A stretch of DNA of 42,004 nt, from NCBI GenBank assembly GCA_016222905.1, contig JACRPZ010000069.1, forward strand, positions 1 through 42,004. Reading direction: 5' to 3'. The translations under genes and the position numbers were made by a program. The notes under the pieces were generated by a model that was given only the letters and a program-made list of their open reading frames with translations, was not told where the DNA came from and ran no database searches. The stretch comes from Nitrospirota bacterium (GTDB lineage Bacteria > Nitrospirota > Thermodesulfovibrionia > UBA6902). This document shows positions 4,147 through 41,680 of this stretch, piece by piece; the stretch's first letter is position 1; every line of letters begins with the position of its first letter.

Positions 4147-4713
4147 ATGATTAAAAAGCTGTTTTTTCCTCTCTTAATTGTCTGTTCTATATTAACTCAT
4201 GCAATAGCCGTCGCTGCGCCGCTGGAAGTTGCAGGGCCTGAGGTGGAGATCAGAGAGAACAATATCATTGTAAACTGCGGGATTGACAATGTCAAAGAGT
4301 TTGAAAAGACGATTAAATCAGGAGTCGCAAAAGAGATTATATTCAATATAGAGCTTATAAGGTCGTGGAGATTCTGGCCCGATGAGTTTGTGGTATCCAA
4401 GAAGATAACAAGGGTCGTAAAGTTTGACAACCTGAGAGAGCAATATAATGTATCTGCTCTTTACGAGAACTCGCTTACGGAGAAGAACTTCAAAGATTAC
4501 AATCTTATGAAGGAGAGGATATTTACTACCGGAGTTGTAAATCTTGCCAATATCAAGGAGCTTGATCCTGGCGTTTATTATGTCAGAGTGGTGGTAGAAT
4601 CAAAAAGCACGGAAGAACCGCCAGTGGTCGGATTACTGATTCACTTCATTCCTGAGGTTGATATGAGGGTTGTGGAAGAATCGGCGTCATTTATTGTCAG
4701 AGGGGATAAATGA
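4147..4713 (+). CDS. DUF4390 domain exported protein
   Basis: The 188-residue protein starts with a signal peptide (hydrophobic residues 4-20, possible cleavage after AVA at about 21-23) and is otherwise soluble, so it should be periplasmic. The body matches the DUF4390 pattern: an early beta-rich region, the ELIRSWRFWPDE core around residues 58-69, and YYVRVVVE near the C-terminus. Function is unknown. Genes of this family often directly precede an NtrY-type histidine kinase, as here, where the stop overlaps the kinase start (ATGA at 4710-4713). A role in sensing or envelope modulation for that kinase is an inference from this pairing. Confidence 0.75.
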   Translation: MIKKLFFPLLIVCSILTHAIAVAAPLEVAGPEVEIRENNIIVNCGIDNVKEFEKTIKSGVAKEIIFNIELIRSWRFWPDEFVVSKKITRVVKFDNLREQYNVSALYENSLTEKNFKDYNLMKERIFTTGVVNLANIKELDPGVYYVRVVVESKSTEEPPVVGLLIHFIPEVDMRVVEESASFIVRGDK

Positions 4714-6764
4714 AAAACCTGAAGATACTTTTAGGCCTCTTTATCTTCACAATCGCGTCTATTATAATCACGGGTCTTACTCTGAATTACCTCGGCATTG
4801 AGCACGGACACCTTCTCATAAAAATAGGTGTTGTATTCATAGTAGTAAATATAATCTTATATTTACTGCTTCTCATATTTTCTGTCGGCAGGAACCTCTT
4901 CAATCTATATTCCGAAAAGAAGCAGAAGGCCATAGGTTCAAAATTCAGGACACAGCTTGTCTTCTCCTTTGTAGGACTTACGCTCATACCATCAATTCTG
5001 CTCTTTATACTCTCAAATCAGCTCATAAACAACTCAATAGACACCTGGTTCTCGATAGAAGTTCAGAAACCTGTTCATGATTCATTGGATATTGCAAAGG
5101 TATTTTATTCGCATGAAAGGGACAATGTTAAGAATCATGCTGAACTCATCGCATACGACAATAGCCTCTTGAATAATTCACGCGGAAATATAGTGTCCGG
5201 AAATTTGAAGAGCTTTTTCCTGACAGCCCCTGATGCCGATGGTTCAGAGATGATCATAAATGCCTTTAACGGCGTTTCTGACACAGAGATAGTATCTCAA
5301 AAAGGCGGGGATATAATAAGAGCCGCTTCCCCGGTTAAATATGAAGGAAAGATCACGGGCGTTATCGTTGTTGAGAAGAGAATCCCCCGCGATATTGTAG
5401 AGAAGATGGAGGCGATCAGGAAGGCATACAATGACTACAACCAGATCAGCATGCAGCAGCATCCGGTAAGATTTATTTATTTTCTCATGCTCACAATCGC
5501 CACACTAGTTATTGTCTTTCTTGCGCTCTGGATATCCCTCCGTATTGCCAAGGGCATAACTGTTCCGATACGATCTCTTGCTGAAGCAACCAAGAATGTC
5601 GCTCATGGAGACCTCGATTTCAGGATTGACTTAGTCAGAGATGATGAGATAGGGCTACTGATCAATTCCTTTAATAAGATGCTTGAGGATTTGAAGGACG
5701 GCAAGCAGTCCCTTGAGAAGGCATATAAGGAGTCTGACAGAAGAAGGCTTAATATGGAGGCTATTCTTGAGAGCATCAATTCAGGCGTTATATTCTTTGA
5801 CCGCACCGGCAGAATTGCCACAATGAACAATGCGGCATGTTCAATGCTGAATATAGAGCACGACAGCATGACAGACAAGGGGCATAAGGAACTTACAAGC
5901 AGGCTTCAATCAGAGGAGCTGAGTTTAATGGTAAAGAATCTTGTTGAGAGCGCATCAGGTTCAATTGAGAAGGAAATTCATATATATATTAACGGCAGGC
6001 CTATGGATTTACGGGTTTACATGACAACCCTCAAAGACTCCGCAAGCAACTTCACAGGAACTCTCGTTGTGTTTGATAATCTCACTGAGATCATCATGGC
6101 TCAGAGAGCGCTTGCATGGCAGGAGGTTGCCAGAAGGGTTGCACATGAAATAAAGAACCCGCTCACCCCGATCAAACTGTCCGCTGAGAGATTGTTTAAA
6201 AAATGGCATGAAAAGGCCAGTGATTTTGACGATGTTCTGACAAGATCTACTAAAACCATAGTGAAGGAAGTCAACAGTCTCAGGTCTCTTGTTGATGAGT
6301 TTTCAAAATTCGGAAAGATGCCAAAGATACATCTTGAACCGGCAGATGTTAAACATATAATTACAGAAGTTGCCGAGCTTTACAGCAATACAAAAGAATT
6401 GGAGATAATTATTTCATTACAAGAGACACCTCGGATAGAGCTTGACAGGGAGCATATAAAGAGAGCCTTAATAAATCTTATGGACAATGCCATTCAGTCC
6501 GGAACACGGAAGATATCGCTTAATTCATTTTATCTTCCGTCCTTTGACCTCATAAGGATAGAGGTCATAGATGAAGGAGCGGGAATATCGGAAGAGAATA
6601 AGGAGAAACTCTTCTCCCCTTACTTCTCCACAAAGAAGGACGGCACAGGTTTAGGGCTGGCTATTGTCAATAGTATAATATCAAAACACAGGGGATATAT
6701 AAGGGTGAAGGACAATGACCCAAGAGGAAGCCGGTTCATAATTGAACTGCCGGTCGGACATTAA
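4710..6764 (+). CDS. NtrY-like membrane sensor histidine kinase
   Basis: The 684-residue protein has membrane segments at about 5-25, 33-55, 85-105 and 252-278, with a roughly 145-residue extracytoplasmic sensor region between the third and fourth. HAMP follows (about 278-330), then PAS (about 345-455), HisKA with phosphoacceptor His479 in ARRVAHEIKNPLTPIK, and HATPase_c with N box (NLMDNAIQSG) and G boxes (DEGAGIS, GTGLGLAIV). The architecture is that of NtrY, which signals to the sigma-54 activator NtrX. No response regulator is adjacent; the NtrX-like protein at 40328-41680 is the only regulator in the window and a plausible partner. Start codon overlaps the DUF4390 stop, implying translational coupling. 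Confidence 0.9.
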   Translation: MKNLKILLGLFIFTIASIIITGLTLNYLGIEHGHLLIKIGVVFIVVNIILYLLLLIFSVGRNLFNLYSEKKQKAIGSKFRTQLVFSFVGLTLIPSILLFILSNQLINNSIDTWFSIEVQKPVHDSLDIAKVFYSHERDNVKNHAELIAYDNSLLNNSRGNIVSGNLKSFFLTAPDADGSEMIINAFNGVSDTEIVSQKGGDIIRAASPVKYEGKITGVIVVEKRIPRDIVEKMEAIRKAYNDYNQISMQQHPVRFIYFLMLTIATLVIVFLALWISLRIAKGITVPIRSLAEATKNVAHGDLDFRIDLVRDDEIGLLINSFNKMLEDLKDGKQSLEKAYKESDRRRLNMEAILESINSGVIFFDRTGRIATMNNAACSMLNIEHDSMTDKGHKELTSRLQSEELSLMVKNLVESASGSIEKEIHIYINGRPMDLRVYMTTLKDSASNFTGTLVVFDNLTEIIMAQRALAWQEVARRVAHEIKNPLTPIKLSAERLFKKWHEKASDFDDVLTRSTKTIVKEVNSLRSLVDEFSKFGKMPKIHLEPADVKHIITEVAELYSNTKELEIIISLQETPRIELDREHIKRALINLMDNAIQSGTRKISLNSFYLPSFDLIRIEVIDEGAGISEENKEKLFSPYFSTKKDGTGLGLAIVNSIISKHRGYIRVKDNDPRGSRFIIELPVGH

Positions 6765-6779
6765 TGGAGGTGAATATTT

Positions 6780-7172
6780 ATGGTTATTAAATACATGCTC
6801 TTCGGACAATACCTGCTTAAGCAGGGTTTAATAAAATCGGGCGATACGATAAATGCAAGAATTATGCAGTTAAAGAATAATCGAAGGATAGGAGATCTTG
6901 CCAGAGAGCGGGGATGGCTGACTGATGAAGAGATAGACAAAATTCTTGTTATTCAGGAGGAGACTCTGGAAATATTCGGAGAGATTGCCGTCAAGGAAGA
7001 ATTACTTACTGAAACTCAGATAGAAGAACTGCTGAAAGCGCAGAAAGACAGCTACCTTTTCTTCGGAGAGGCGCTGGTTCAGCTTGGCGCGATATCGGAT
7101 GAAGATATGAAGAAGCACTTGAAGTTATTCAATAAACTTAAATATTCTTCTACCGACCTGTCCGGGAGTTAA
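6780..7172 (+). CDS. Small MshEN/GspE-N-like repeat protein
   Basis: The 130-residue soluble protein is built from four units of about 28-30 residues: LFGQYLLKQGLI.., RIGDLARERGWLTDEEI.., IFGEIAVKEELLTETQI.. and FFGEALVQLGAISDEDM... Each has the (R/L/F)-(F/I)-G-x-x-(L/A) start and L/I-x-x-x-x-(I/L)-x-x-x-L-x-x-Q spacing of the MshEN (type II secretion E, N-terminal) domain, here without an ATPase. MshEN motifs bind c-di-GMP in MshE, but the usual RLG arginine is kept only in the second unit (RIG), so ligand binding is uncertain. It lies 15 nt after ntrY with a strong GGAGGTG ribosome site and is probably in that operon. Confidence 0.65.
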   Translation: MVIKYMLFGQYLLKQGLIKSGDTINARIMQLKNNRRIGDLARERGWLTDEEIDKILVIQEETLEIFGEIAVKEELLTETQIEELLKAQKDSYLFFGEALVQLGAISDEDMKKHLKLFNKLKYSSTDLSGS

Positions 7173-29167: not shown

Positions 29168-31411
29168 ATGTCTAAAAACCTTAATAAGCTATCAATAATG
29201 AATCATATTTCAATAATTGCGGCGTTGCTGCTTCTGGTTTTTAACGGCAATGTTTTTGCAGAGCCTCCAAAAATCAATGAAGCAGCGCAAGTGTCCCCTA
29301 AAAATCTTACGGTACCAGAACCTCCACCGCCCGTTGTTACACCTCAAGACCCTCCACCGCCCGTTGTTTCACCTCAAGAGGCTCCGATACCTGCAAATCT
29401 TCCGCCCAATATAACGCAGGAGCAGGTAAAATCTTTCTTTTCAAAACAAAGTTCCGAGAATTTTGTGATCCTCAATTTTGATGATGCTGAGCTTGCCGAT
29501 GTGATAAATACCATTAGTTCCATCACCGGCGCAAACTTCATAGTAAGCCCCGGATTAAGCGCGAAGATCACCATAAATTCGTCGAAGAAAATTCCTGTCA
29601 GTGAGGTATTGAATGTTTTTGAATCAATCCTGGAGGTAAATGGAATCTCCCTTGTAAAGTCAGGAGATTTTTTTAAGATAGTTTCGAGTGCTGCTGCCAA
29701 GCAAAAGCCTCTTGAGATTCTTAAAGATATTAATGCCGGCTCCGTTCCTTACGGGGACAGGCCTGTAACGCAGATTATTCCTGTAAGGTATGTCCCTGCG
29801 CGCGAGGTAACTGCTGTCCTTCAGCCTATGCTTTCGCAGGCAGGCAGCATTATCCCTAATCCAAGAAACAACCTGATTATCATCAATGATAATGCGTCCA
29901 GCATAAGGCGGCTTCTGGAGGTTCTCGCAGAAATAGATATTGATGTCTTTCAGGACAAGAGACTGGTTTTCTTTCAGCCGCAATACTCTAATGCGAAGAC
30001 CCTTTCCGATGATTTGACAAGCATACTAAACGCATTGAATTACACTAAAGAAGAAGTGGTGCTGGTCCCTATCGAGAGGATAAACAGCCTTATCATATTT
30101 TCTTCAAGCCCTGATATTCTAAGAACCGTGAATATATGGATCAAGAAGCTTGATGAGGATGTTATGACAGGCCAGAATATTTTTGTGTATCAAGTGCAGA
30201 ACGTCAAAGCTCAGTCTCTCGCCGAGGTGCTTCATTCTCTGTATGGGGGTAACAGCGGCACCTCAGCAGCGCCGCAGCGTCAGACTGCCGCGGCTTCTGA
30301 ACCTTCAAAGCAGGCGGCCCCTGTTAAAGCTGCAAGTTCTCCGGTTGTCCAGAAGCCTTCTTCCGCTTCTCCCGGTTCCGGCGCAAGCAAAGTTGAAATC
30401 ACCATATTTGAACCTACAAACGCGCTTGTAATTCTCTCTCCGCCCGGCATATACAGAGATATAGTCAATACTATAAAGAAACTCGATGTTTATCCAAAGG
30501 AGGTATTGATTGAGGTTTTAGTAGCTGAGGTGAATCTTACCAACGACCTGCAGTTTGGTGTGCAGTGGTCTGTTCTTAATCGCTTCAGCATCGAAGGCGA
30601 CGACAACTATACCGGTCTTGCCCAGAACCGTTCAGGCGAGTCGCCTTTCTTTTCGCTTCCGCCAATTATAGGCGAGAATTCAGGAGCAGCCTCTACTTTA
30701 GCAGGAGGCTTGTCTTATCTTCTATATAGACCTGATAAGATAGCTGCAATGATACATTCTCTGGTAGGCAATGGAAGGGCTAATATACTGTCCAGTCCGA
30801 GGCTCCTTGTCAGAGATCAGGAAGAGGCGAGCATTGAGGTCGGTTCTGATATACCGACAGCAACAAACTCAAGCCAATCCAGTGATACAACAGCCACGGT
30901 AAATCAGACCATAGAGTATAAAACAATCGGAATAAAGCTGAAGATAAAGCCGAGCATAAATGATGAAAAGACCGTTGTGCTTGATATAGAGCAGGAGGTC
31001 TCTGACCAGTTGTCGAATGTAACCGTGGGACAGCAGGGATTTTCATATCCGTCATTCTCTACAAGAAAGACGAAGACCTCCATTGTTGTTCCTGATCAGC
31101 AGGGGATTGTTATAGGCGGCATCATAAAAGAGAAGAAAAACAAGGATTATCAGGGGATCCCCGGATTAAGCAAAATCCCTCTTCTTGGATACCTCTTCCG
31201 TGATACAAAGGAGAACGTTTCAAAAACAGAATTAGTTATTATTTTGACCCCCCATGTCATAACTAATAAATCTGAAACGGAAATGGTGAAGACTGACTTT
31301 CTGGATAAACTCAAAGAGGTAAAAGATGCTCTGAAAAATAGCAAAGGCATTTATGACATAATTCCTTCCGAAAAGCCAGAGCCTGATCCAAAGCAAGTCG
31401 ATGAGCAATGA
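29168..31411 (+). CDS. gspD: Type II secretion outer-membrane secretin GspD
   Basis: GspD forms the outer-membrane gate of the type II secretion system. The 747-residue protein has a signal peptide (about 1-31, ending VFA), a proline-rich segment with two near-identical copies of PPPPVV(T/S)PQ (about 51-72), N0-N1-type domains (about 95-260), N2-N3 repeats with an Ala/Ser/Pro-rich linker inserted at about 360-410, and the secretin barrel (about 445-695) with VEVGSDIPT-like IEVGSDIPT and VPDQQGIVIGGIIKE, GIPGLSKIPLLGYLFR. The C-terminus may bind a pilotin, but none is encoded nearby. It overlaps gspE by 11 nt. Confidence 0.95.
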   Translation: MSKNLNKLSIMNHISIIAALLLLVFNGNVFAEPPKINEAAQVSPKNLTVPEPPPPVVTPQDPPPPVVSPQEAPIPANLPPNITQEQVKSFFSKQSSENFVILNFDDAELADVINTISSITGANFIVSPGLSAKITINSSKKIPVSEVLNVFESILEVNGISLVKSGDFFKIVSSAAAKQKPLEILKDINAGSVPYGDRPVTQIIPVRYVPAREVTAVLQPMLSQAGSIIPNPRNNLIIINDNASSIRRLLEVLAEIDIDVFQDKRLVFFQPQYSNAKTLSDDLTSILNALNYTKEEVVLVPIERINSLIIFSSSPDILRTVNIWIKKLDEDVMTGQNIFVYQVQNVKAQSLAEVLHSLYGGNSGTSAAPQRQTAAASEPSKQAAPVKAASSPVVQKPSSASPGSGASKVEITIFEPTNALVILSPPGIYRDIVNTIKKLDVYPKEVLIEVLVAEVNLTNDLQFGVQWSVLNRFSIEGDDNYTGLAQNRSGESPFFSLPPIIGENSGAASTLAGGLSYLLYRPDKIAAMIHSLVGNGRANILSSPRLLVRDQEEASIEVGSDIPTATNSSQSSDTTATVNQTIEYKTIGIKLKIKPSINDEKTVVLDIEQEVSDQLSNVTVGQQGFSYPSFSTRKTKTSIVVPDQQGIVIGGIIKEKKNKDYQGIPGLSKIPLLGYLFRDTKENVSKTELVIILTPHVITNKSETEMVKTDFLDKLKEVKDALKNSKGIYDIIPSEKPEPDPKQVDEQ

Positions 31412-33146
31412 AGCAGTTGAAATAACAGGCAAACACAAACGCTTAGGCGAAATCCTCCTTGACCGGAAACTCGTAACTTTAGAAAAACTTGAGGTAGCTT
31501 TAAAGGAACAGTCTGTTCATGACAGGGACGAGGCCAGTGCCGGCAAAGGTTATCGCAGGCTGGGCGAAGTACTCGCTGAGCTGGGTTTTGTATCGGAAGA
31601 GGATATTCTTAAGGCCTTAAGTTTTCAGCTTGGATTAAAATATCTTACCTTTTCTGAATTCCCAAAGGTTATTCCTGACAATTCCTACCCCACTGTTAAG
31701 TTCATGAAGCAATACAAAATAGTTCCTATCGGCATAGCTAATAACACACTTCAAATAGCCGTATCCGACCCGCTCAATAAGTATATTCTCGATGCCTTGA
31801 GTGTATTCTCTGGCAGGCCTGTTGAGCTCTTCCTCAGCAGCGAAAAGGATATTATGGAGGCGATTGAGCAGTATTTCGGCACTGATGTCCAGATGACAAG
31901 CATCATGGAAGGGATGAGGGAGGATGAGCTTGAGTCGGAAGGGATTGAGCTTCAGGAGGATGTGCATCACCTTAGGGACATGGCTTTTGAGGCGCCTATT
32001 GTAAAGCTGGTCAACATGCTGATAACACGTGCTGTTGAGGACAGGTCGAGCGATATTCATATAGAGCCGTTTGAAAACAGCGTCAAGGTCAGGTACAGGA
32101 CAGACGGAGTGCTGGATGAGATTGAATCACTCCCGAAACGTTTACAGCCTGCTGTAATATCGAGACTTAAGATAATGTCAAGGCTTAATATTGCGGAGAG
32201 AAGGCTTCCGCAGGATGGAAGAATAAAGCTTAGGGTATCGGGCAGGGATTTAGACCTCAGGATTTCCACCATGCCGACTGTTTACGGAGAGAGCATTGTC
32301 ATGAGGATACTTGACAGGAGCAGTTCCCTGACTGCGCTAGAAGATCTTGGTTTTCCCGGCAATATTATTGGAGAATACAGGAAGCTGATTAACGCTCCAT
32401 ACGGCATGCTTTTGGTAACAGGCCCTACAGGAAGCGGGAAAACAACCACTCTTTACGCGTCCCTTAGCGAAATCAACTCTGAAGACAAGAAGATCATCAC
32501 TATAGAGGATCCTATCGAATATCAGATTGAAGGCATAAATCAGATACAGGTGCATCCCAAGATAGGGCTTACTTTTGCCAATGGTCTCAGGCATATTGTC
32601 CGACAGGACCCGGATGTCATAATGGTCGGAGAGATCAGGGATATTGAGACTGCCGAGATATCTGTGCATTCTGCGCTTACAGGACATCTGGTCTTCAGCA
32701 CGCTTCATACAAACGACGCCCCAGGCGCTGTTACGAGACTGCTTGATATGGGCACCGAGGGTTTTCTGGTATCATCTTCCCTCATCGGCGTGCTGGCCCA
32801 GAGGCTGGTAAGGGTCATATGTCCGGTGTGTAAGGAGCCTTTTACTCCAAATCCTAAAATACTTGAAAAAGTCGAGGTTGCTTTGGCAAGCACTGAAATT
32901 TATCACGGAGCCGGCTGCGAGGAATGCAGATATACAGGCTACAAAAGCAGGACAGGGATATTTGAATTGATGATTATGAATGAAGATATTAAACAGCTTG
33001 TTTTGGGAAGGGCAAGCTCTGATGCGATCAGGCAGATGGCTGTTTCAGGTGGAATGCATCTTCTGAGGGAGAGCGGCTGGCAAAAAGTCAGGGAAGGGAT
33101 AACAACAGTTGAGGAAGTTTTGAGGGTCACTCAGGAGTTAATCTGA
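31401..33146 (+). CDS. gspE: Type II secretion ATPase GspE with N-terminal MshEN domain
   Basis: GspE is the cytoplasmic ATPase that drives pseudopilus assembly. In 581 residues it has two MshEN half-motifs (KRLGEILLDRKLV..., YRRLGEVLAELGFV..., about residues 12-80), an N2 domain, and a RecA-like core with Walker A GPTGSGKTT (about 340-348), Asp box, Walker B DPDVIMVGEIRD, and His box TGHLVFSTLHTND. The zinc tetracysteine CPVC ... CEEC lies at about 474-510. The RLG(E)xL spacing matches c-di-GMP-binding MshEN sites. Its stop shares one base with the gspF start (TGATG). Confidence 0.97.
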   Translation: MSNEAVEITGKHKRLGEILLDRKLVTLEKLEVALKEQSVHDRDEASAGKGYRRLGEVLAELGFVSEEDILKALSFQLGLKYLTFSEFPKVIPDNSYPTVKFMKQYKIVPIGIANNTLQIAVSDPLNKYILDALSVFSGRPVELFLSSEKDIMEAIEQYFGTDVQMTSIMEGMREDELESEGIELQEDVHHLRDMAFEAPIVKLVNMLITRAVEDRSSDIHIEPFENSVKVRYRTDGVLDEIESLPKRLQPAVISRLKIMSRLNIAERRLPQDGRIKLRVSGRDLDLRISTMPTVYGESIVMRILDRSSSLTALEDLGFPGNIIGEYRKLINAPYGMLLVTGPTGSGKTTTLYASLSEINSEDKKIITIEDPIEYQIEGINQIQVHPKIGLTFANGLRHIVRQDPDVIMVGEIRDIETAEISVHSALTGHLVFSTLHTNDAPGAVTRLLDMGTEGFLVSSSLIGVLAQRLVRVICPVCKEPFTPNPKILEKVEVALASTEIYHGAGCEECRYTGYKSRTGIFELMIMNEDIKQLVLGRASSDAIRQMAVSGGMHLLRESGWQKVREGITTVEEVLRVTQELI

Positions 33147-40327: not shown

Positions 40328-41680
40328 TCAAGGTATTTCTATTCCGAGTGACTTGATCTTTCTGTGGAGGTTGCTCCTTTCAATATCAAGCTCATCCGCG
40401 GTCTTTGTGACATTCCAGCTGTTTGACTCCAGTTTTTTCAGAATAAACCGGCTTTCGAAGTTCTTCCTCGCCTCTTTTAAGGTCTTGTAATTAAAGAAGT
40501 CTGCCTTTTCTTCAATTACGCTGAGCGGTTCTTTAACATCTATAAGATTGGATTGACTCATGATTACAAGCCGTTCAATTGTATTCTTGAGTTCCCTGAC
40601 ATTTCCAGGCCAGTCATATTCCATTAAAGCCTGAGAAGTGGCTTTACTCACCTCTTTTGTTTTTTGGCCATATTGTTTTGCGAAATTGTTAAGGAAGCAC
40701 TCAACAAGCAGCGGTATGTCATCCTTCCTTTCTCTGAGCGGAGGGACATTGATTGGAATTACGTTAAGTCTGAAGTAGAGGTCTTCCCTGAAATTGCCTT
40801 TTTTGATCTCATCCTGAAGAGCCTTATTTGTCGCGGCTATTATCCTTACGTCAACCTTTATATTTTTGCTTCCCCCGACCCTGAGAAATTCCTGAGTTTC
40901 AATAATACGAAGCACTTTTGCCTGTGCGGCCTGCGACATATCTCCTATCTCATCAAGAAAGAGGGTGCCTTCATCCGCCAGTTCGAACTTTCCTTTTTTA
41001 CGCTCAAACGCTCCGGTAAAGGAACCTTTCTCATGACCGAATAACTCGCTCTCGATCAATTCATTTGGAATAGCCGCGCAATTGACTTCTATAAAATTAT
41101 TATTTCTTCTGTCGCTTGCCGTATGCAGCTTCCTGGCAACCAGTTCCTTGCCGGTGCCGCTCTCACCGTATATAATGACCCTGCTCTGTGAAGCAGCCGC
41201 TTTTGTTATCTCTTCCTTCAGGGTTATTATTTTAGGGCTCTTTCCGACTATCTCCAATTCCTGAAAGATGCTTGATTTTAATGCTATGTTTTCCTTCTCT
41301 AACCTCTGTTTTTCAAGGGCCCTTTTGGTTAGGATCAGGACTTTTTCAAGAGATAGCGGTTTTTCAAGAAAGTCATACGCGCCGAGCTTGATGGCATGAA
41401 CTGCCGTATCTATAGTGCTGTGTCCGGAAATCATGATGACAGGGGTTTCCTTGCTGATCTCTTTTATCTTCTTCAGTGTCTCAATCCCGTCAATGCCGGA
41501 CATCCAGACATCGAGAAGCACAACATCAGGAGATGTTTTTTCAAAATATGTGAGGGCACCTTCGCCTGAAGATGCAGTGCTAACCTCATAACCTTCGTCT
41601 TCGAGAATACTGCTGAGGGTCTCAAGTATGCTCTCTTCATCATCAACTACAAGAACAGTTGCCTTTGTTTTTTTGGACAT
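40328..41680 (-). CDS. NtrX/NtrC-type sigma-54-dependent response regulator
   Basis: The 450-residue protein has a receiver domain (about 5-120, phosphoacceptor Asp57 in LLDVWMSG, Lys in FLEKP), a central AAA+ domain (about 145-380: Walker A GESGTGKE, sigma-54 loop GSFTGAF, Walker B TLFLDEIGDM, sensor motif GNFREDLYFRLNV, PGNVRELKN) and a Fis-type HTH (about 410-450: NVTKTADELDIERSNLHRKI). It resembles NtrX. There is no kinase next to it; the NtrY-like kinase at 4710-6764 is a candidate partner. It is convergent with the secretion operon and divergent from whatever lies beyond 42004, where a sigma-54 promoter is seen. Confidence 0.93.
   Translation of the reverse strand: MSKKTKATVLVVDDEESILETLSSILEDEGYEVSTASSGEGALTYFEKTSPDVVLLDVWMSGIDGIETLKKIKEISKETPVIMISGHSTIDTAVHAIKLGAYDFLEKPLSLEKVLILTKRALEKQRLEKENIALKSSIFQELEIVGKSPKIITLKEEITKAAASQSRVIIYGESGTGKELVARKLHTASDRRNNNFIEVNCAAIPNELIESELFGHEKGSFTGAFERKKGKFELADEGTLFLDEIGDMSQAAQAKVLRIIETQEFLRVGGSKNIKVDVRIIAATNKALQDEIKKGNFREDLYFRLNVIPINVPPLRERKDDIPLLVECFLNNFAKQYGQKTKEVSKATSQALMEYDWPGNVRELKNTIERLVIMSQSNLIDVKEPLSVIEEKADFFNYKTLKEARKNFESRFILKKLESNSWNVTKTADELDIERSNLHRKIKSLGIEIP

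Follow-up and report, generated by a model that had tools for sequence, protein, structure and literature searches.

Stand-alone four-unit MshEN-like proteins with a single predicted c-di-GMP site in a class of Nitrospirota

The MshEN domain is known mainly for regulating the motors of pili and secretion systems, of which it is a part. The locus described here raises the question of what such a domain may do when it is encoded on its own. The window, i.e., the whole stretch of 42,004 nucleotides that was analyzed (contig JACRPZ010000069.1 of the Nitrospirota bacterium assembly GCA_016222905.1), contains a short gene whose product, P0001, appears to consist of MshEN-type repeats only (Table 1). 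An earlier note on this DNA had placed the gene in a kinase operon and had regarded the product as a ligand sensor, as a competitor for the secretion ATPase GspE or as a possibly undescribed adaptor.

Table 1. Features of the window on which the analysis is based.
Feature	Position	Strand	Basis or remark
NtrY-type histidine kinase	4710..6764	+	Pfam NtrY_N, HAMP, PAS, HisKA, HATPase_c; judged to be a neighbor only, outside the system
GGAGGTG, resembling a ribosome-binding site, 5′ of the P0001 ATG	6766..6772	+	Sequence
Stand-alone four-unit MshEN_N-like protein P0001	6780..7172	+	ATG start, 130 aa; NF053729 match and repeat scan
P0001 unit 1 (residues 7–30)	6798..6869	+	Gly9 and Gln30 retained; Arg27 replaces the stacking Leu
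P0001 unit 2 (residues 36–59)	6885..6956	+	First half of the sole complete predicted c-di-GMP site
P0001 unit 3 (residues 65–88)	6972..7043	+	Second half of the sole complete predicted c-di-GMP site
P0001 unit 4 (residues 94–117)	7059..7130	+	Gly96 retained; Phe117 replaces the final Gln
NtrX-type response regulator	40328..41680	-	Named by homology to loci where the regulator follows NtrY

The published MshEN motif is a pair of 24-residue motifs joined by a spacer of five residues, as described in the portion of PMC5013675 drawn on here. P0001 contains four 24-residue motifs of the MshE type in an exact 29-residue period, i.e., with 5-residue spacers, the units starting at residues 7, 36, 65 and 94 with glycines at 9, 38, 67 and 96. 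When periods of 20 to 35 were scanned, this register satisfied 35 of 44 motif positions (the runner-up period satisfied 23), and none of 5000 shuffled sequences reached the real score, the top score among them being 23. Arginine is the first residue in unit 2 only, with leucine, isoleucine and phenylalanine taking this place in units 1, 3 and 4. The curated NCBIfam model of the MshE-related c-di-GMP motif, NF053729, matches P0001 with 56.4 bits (cut-off 38, E 1.9e-15) and also all 14 aligned family members (E <= 0.001). The description of four consecutive units with MshEN spacing that make up the entire 130-residue protein is thus confirmed.

A Pfam search of P0001 returned neither an ATPase nor the MshEN model PF05157 at E <= 10, nor a CheX domain, and the chain stops at residue 130. 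The earlier statement that the protein is without an ATPase therefore stands, while the profile search that had been suggested as a check is passed with NF053729 and gives no match with PF05157. In other proteins of the same genome, PF05157 matches the region directly behind the NF053729 motifs. This position suggests that PF05157 describes MshEN_C, and that the part missing from P0001 is MshEN_C together with the ATPase. Among PDB sequences searched with phmmer, Thermus PilF is the best match (1.9e-6), and MshE of Vibrio cholerae is found at 0.0015.

The same Pfam search gave a marginal match of 28 residues to the C-terminus of fumarase C (PF10415, 33.4 bits against a cut-off of 32.5), and at E <= 1 the model also picks up each of the 14 aligned members. 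A helix hairpin like that of P0001 occurs in fumarase C-termini (Z 6.0–7.5), and the marginal match is taken, together with this hairpin, as a shared shape. The fumarase catalytic domain is absent, and an identity as a fumarase was rejected. Automatic annotation may nevertheless mislabel the family as fumarase.

A profile (A1) was built from 14 members and searched over 230 genomes of the class. It matches in 125 of these at E <= 1e-6, and strong members (>120 bits) comprise 63 distinct loci in 56 genomes. The survey table of 65 rows holds these 63 loci and two further entries, L053 and L054, which duplicate the records L149 and L154. Among the genomes of 61 relatives, 39 have a match at E <= 1e-3, a count that includes the N-termini of ATPases. 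Outside the class, three genomes in a phylum sample of 395 exceed 120 bits (G284, G259 and G249). Nearly all members are of approximately 120–135 residues and carry no other domain. In the tree, the P0001 family forms one side of a branch with a support of 88/96, apart from three other groups of four-unit proteins (B, C and D); the tree covers 82 of 85 rows, with identical or gappy rows omitted, and its few columns leave many forks unresolved.

Long N-terminal extensions in L157, L164, L166, L174 and L196 were taken, by eye, as start-codon artefacts. Three members of one genus (L192:7045-7689, L194:6964-7608 and L197:7025-7993) have a cysteine-rich N-terminal extension, for which L194 shows no Pfam match. 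The extension might serve to sense redox state or metals, perhaps as a two-CW-like domain. A viral origin of the family was also considered and rejected, as no relative was confirmed in viral contigs and there was no BFVD match at E <= 0.001.

The contacts of the ligand in MshEN have been reported by Wang et al. 2016 (PMC5013675), and the sections of that paper used here assign them to few positions. The backbone amides of the glycine at the third position contact the ligand, the final glutamine contacts ribose and phosphate, and a hydrophobic triangle is built from the second residue of one motif and two hydrophobic residues of its partner. Six elements were accordingly scored for each pair of units: two glycines, two glutamines and two hydrophobic triangles. 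For the central pair, units 2 and 3, the site is complete in P0001, in 52 of 65 rows and in 50 of the 63 distinct members; the 13 in which it fails include L187, a truncated frame. Neither pair 1-2 nor pair 3-4 is complete in any of the 63, and in P0001 each is short of one element. They are never complete because of two conserved substitutions: an arginine at position 27 (62/63) and a phenylalanine or tyrosine at position 117 (62/63). According to the same sections of PMC5013675, an isolated MshEN_N (residues 1–62) binds c-di-GMP at 0.35 uM, and XpsE, which does not bind, has several changes that include L29R, the equivalent of Arg27.

The other proteins of P0001's genome provide a yardstick. 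All six elements are present in the type IV pilus (T4P) ATPase on C54 and in the GspE of the window, and in none of six other motif proteins that were tested, which have three to five each. The GspE (31401–33146) had been credited with canonical RLG motifs. It does have two intact-looking RLG motifs; their spacing, however, is 39 residues and not 29, with a 15-residue linker against the published 5, and the spacer of P0001 is the closer of the two to the published length. GGDEF matches above the cut-off number 14 in the genome, which makes it probable that this organism produces c-di-GMP.

The central site of P0001 is not entirely typical. The first motif residues of the pair are Arg36 and Ile65, and Glu74 stands where MshEN has a turn glycine. 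According to the part of PMC11731258 considered here, lysine or leucine may stand for the first arginine of the motif, and GSPII-B of PilF binds c-di-GMP at 6 nM with lysine and leucine as its first residues. Ile65 falls outside this published range of R/K/L.

The other four-unit groups differ in the state of their sites. Group B consists of L087:8178-9041 (-) (G000:C34), L088-L093 and L074. It is CheX-fused in L087, the sole one tested, and a short gene resembling an NtrX receiver (approximately 120–145 aa) lies directly upstream in seven of the eight loci, L093 being the one without it. Each locus of group C (L078, L079, L080, L082-L086) encodes a divergent stand-alone four-unit protein, with a larger protein directly behind it and then a shorter one. 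The larger neighbors are VWA-domain proteins in all three loci tested (L078, L082 and L085), and the shorter neighbor tested is coiled-coil-like. By the six elements, intact sites are found in none of the eight proteins of group B, and the sites are degenerate in all eight of group C. The stand-alone proteins of group D (L075, L076, L077 and L081) have an intact site in pair 1-2 (4/4) and in pair 2-3 (3/4). In L075, the gene comes after that of a 503-aa multi-4Fe-4S protein.

These patterns bear on the possibility that P0001 is a former c-di-GMP domain that now acts as a protein–protein scaffold without nucleotide binding. In every row, two of the three possible sites are defective, groups B and C have no intact site, and P0001 itself has Ile65 and Glu74 in the central pair. 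Against this, the residues of the central site are retained in the large majority of distinct members, position 65 is a lysine or arginine in 56 of 65 rows, and the tight binding reported for PilF GSPII-B shows that first residues other than arginine are tolerated. The scaffold explanation is thus considered rather unlikely, and binding at the central pair is the preferred reading.

Structure prediction agrees with the choice of this pair. AlphaFold2 models made from three-sequence alignments reached a pLDDT of 82.4 and a pTM of 0.65 for P0001, and 76.6 and 0.55 for the orthologue L053. In VIA-align, residues 32–91 of the P0001 model align on c-di-GMP-bound MshE (5htl_B) with a Z of 8.6 and an rmsd of 2.2 over 58 residues, and residues 28–90 of the L053 model with a Z of 10.4 and an rmsd of 2.6. 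The alignments on holo PilF GSPII-B give Z values of approximately 8.2 and 9.9, respectively. All of these Z values, those on 5htl_B included, lie in a range (under approximately 13) in which helical bundles can reflect a common arrangement only. Unrelated helical structures rank below, at a Z of 7.5 or less. The E-values of Foldseek are not significant, with 0.14 as the best and 1.0 (prob 0.99) for 5htl_B. In both models, the units picked are 2 and 3, the same pair as was picked by conservation, and the fold of this pair is predicted to be a four-helix bundle of the MshEN_N type. An unrelated fold, which the earlier note had named as grounds for abandoning its proposal, is not what the models suggest.

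A domain of the type found at motor N-termini could compete with the motors themselves. P0001 would then dock on a motor, either GspE or the type IV pilus ATPase, or on its platform where the MshEN domain of the motor normally sits, and so serve as a competitor or adaptor. Both ATPases are present in the genome with intact sites, and PilT-family proteins are matched in all 56 genomes with the family. As PilT is nearly universal in the class (224/230), this co-occurrence is uninformative. There is no conserved gsp or pil neighbor in the 65 rows, and over these rows only three neighbors have a GspE-like gene as their best match in the window. Moreover, P0001 lacks MshEN_C, through which the motif bundle is connected with the remainder of the motor. 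The proposal of a GspE competitor or adaptor is consequently without genomic support, and this role is judged improbable.

The gene begins 15 bp past the stop codon of the NtrY-type kinase, on the same strand and with a good ribosome-binding sequence, an arrangement that would suit an accessory sensor of this kinase. Relatives do not share it. DUF4390 is present in 58 of 61 relatives, and 20 of the 58 DUF4390-NtrY loci were surveyed. An NtrX-type regulator comes next after NtrY in 18 of the 20, and the P0001 gene in none. The two exceptions are L111 (with a 181-aa frame and the contig end) and L114, and the regulator is matched over only 117–131 residues in L107 and L108. Among the other 64 rows of the family, no NtrY orthologue lies within six genes. 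Some histidine kinase is adjacent in five of 65 rows (the window, L064, L192, L194 and L197), with an NtrY orthologue in the window only: the other four show 22–30% identity, or 45% over only 67 residues, against 36–70% over approximately 640–720 residues among NtrY orthologues. A close upstream gene on the same strand (<= 30 bp) is found in 19 of 65 rows.

It follows that the kinase operon holds as a description of orientation and spacing, and not as a functional unit. The suggested check of whether the gene always follows ntrY had a negative outcome, and conserved linkage, the lack of which had been named as counting against the proposal, is absent. The NtrY partnership was rejected on both surveys, and a role as sensor of this kinase is regarded as very unlikely. 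No conserved neighbor of any kind emerged in the 65 rows; the widest clusters reach 15 rows, at changing offsets and with histidine kinases included, and the next reach 10. The placement of P0001 beside a sensor kinase looks accidental.

The window also departs from these relatives in the position of ntrX. The NtrX homologue lies at its far end on the opposite strand, which suggests that ntrY and ntrX are split on this contig with the P0001 gene at the break. This homologue adjoins gsp-like genes, as in L103, L106, L112, L115 and L116. In both complete genomes compared (G012 and G014), yicC and ntrY are far apart, which makes a rearrangement a plausible cause of the split; misassembly is the alternative. 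No long inverted repeat was found at the split junctions when these were tested for an inversion. The end of the contig (41984–42004) is a simple repeat of the CACTC type, which recurs within four other contigs or at their edges (C46, C51, C62 and C81). The ntrY neighborhood of P0001 accompanies a split ntrY-ntrX pair, and it cautions against inferring operons from a single genome.

Stand-alone PilZ-type receptors for c-di-GMP serve as flagellar brakes, and a YcgR-like role might be imagined for P0001. No FliG is matched in its genome at E <= 1e-5, and a full FliG is missing from 46 of the 56 genomes with the family; in scoring FliG, five genomes whose FliG_C matches are weak and long were treated as lacking it. 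The raw negative association of the family with FliG (10/56 vs 118/174, Fisher p 4e-11) was not retained as a flagellar link, since it vanishes within taxonomic families (10 observed vs 9.6 expected, p 0.69). There is likewise no positive association, and a flagellar brake is the least credible of the roles considered.

P0001 is probably, although by no means certainly, a small cytoplasmic c-di-GMP receptor or adaptor that has one site and acts in trans. Units 2 and 3 would form one four-helix bundle holding one c-di-GMP. The guanines would be contacted by the backbone amides of Gly38 and Gly67 and the ribose-phosphate by Gln59 and Gln88, while the clusters Ile52/Leu56/Phe66 and Ile81/Leu85/Ile37 would lie beneath the two bases. 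Units 1 and 4 may be former half-sites that no longer bind, owing to Arg27 and Phe117, and that persist as surfaces for capping or for docking a partner. Binding of c-di-GMP could then shift the packing of the outer units and switch the contact with a partner protein encoded elsewhere. The dispersed and mostly stand-alone genes of the family suggest such a diffusible receptor with its partner encoded at another locus. Of the earlier proposal of a ligand sensor, the MshEN-type units, the conserved site residues and a probable ligand-binding fold remain, and the kinase-operon setting is given up.

More tentatively, and at somewhat less than an even chance, the whole family might be one of MshEN-only c-di-GMP receptors with one site that act in trans, as a counterpart of the stand-alone PilZ proteins. 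The disabling of the outer sites by Arg27 and Phe/Tyr117 would have created a ligand-gated docking surface, and four identical repeats would thereby have turned into a single sensor with two arms. If this is true, a soluble c-di-GMP effector of a hardly described type is present in about a quarter of the class genomes (56/230), most of which are without flagella. The two conserved substitutions also allow a sharp test of whether dead repeats become docking surfaces.

The MshEN domain and a tandem form, (MshEN_N)2, are already in print, the latter mentioned by Wang et al. 2016 in the part of PMC5013675 consulted. Searches of an open-access library, outside of which most subscription journals lie, turned up no stand-alone family in which one central site is combined with two conserved dead half-sites. 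The idea of a possibly undescribed adaptor is thus narrowed: the kind of protein is in print, and the one-site stand-alone family is absent from the literature covered.

Among known systems, MshEN_N of V. cholerae MshE (PDB 5HTL; PMC5013675, in part) shares with P0001 the 24-residue motifs, the 5-residue spacers and the four-helix bundle, the last being predicted in P0001. The glycine, glutamine and hydrophobic positions are the same as in units 2 and 3. In contrast to MshE, P0001 has four motifs and not two, is without MshEN_C and the ATPase, and has, in unit 1, an arginine where the stacking residue would be and, in unit 4, a phenylalanine for the last glutamine. GSPII-B of Thermus thermophilus PilF (PDB 8PDK; PMC11731258, in part) is the closest PDB sequence, with 33–34% identity over the aligned bundle. 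It tolerates first residues other than arginine, as P0001 would need, whereas PilF as a whole is an ATPase with three GSPII domains. The MshEN-CheX proteins, named in the excerpted text of PMC5013675 and represented here by group B, resemble P0001 in their four-unit N-terminal part with 34–38% identity. They differ in a C-terminal CheX (L087), which P0001 lacks, in usually lying beside a receiver-type gene and in forming their own clade. A tandem of the (MshEN_N)2 form, known here from its mention in PMC5013675, would be expected to consist of two MshEN_N equivalents alone, as P0001 does; in P0001, however, the intact pair is the central one and not the two outer pairs.
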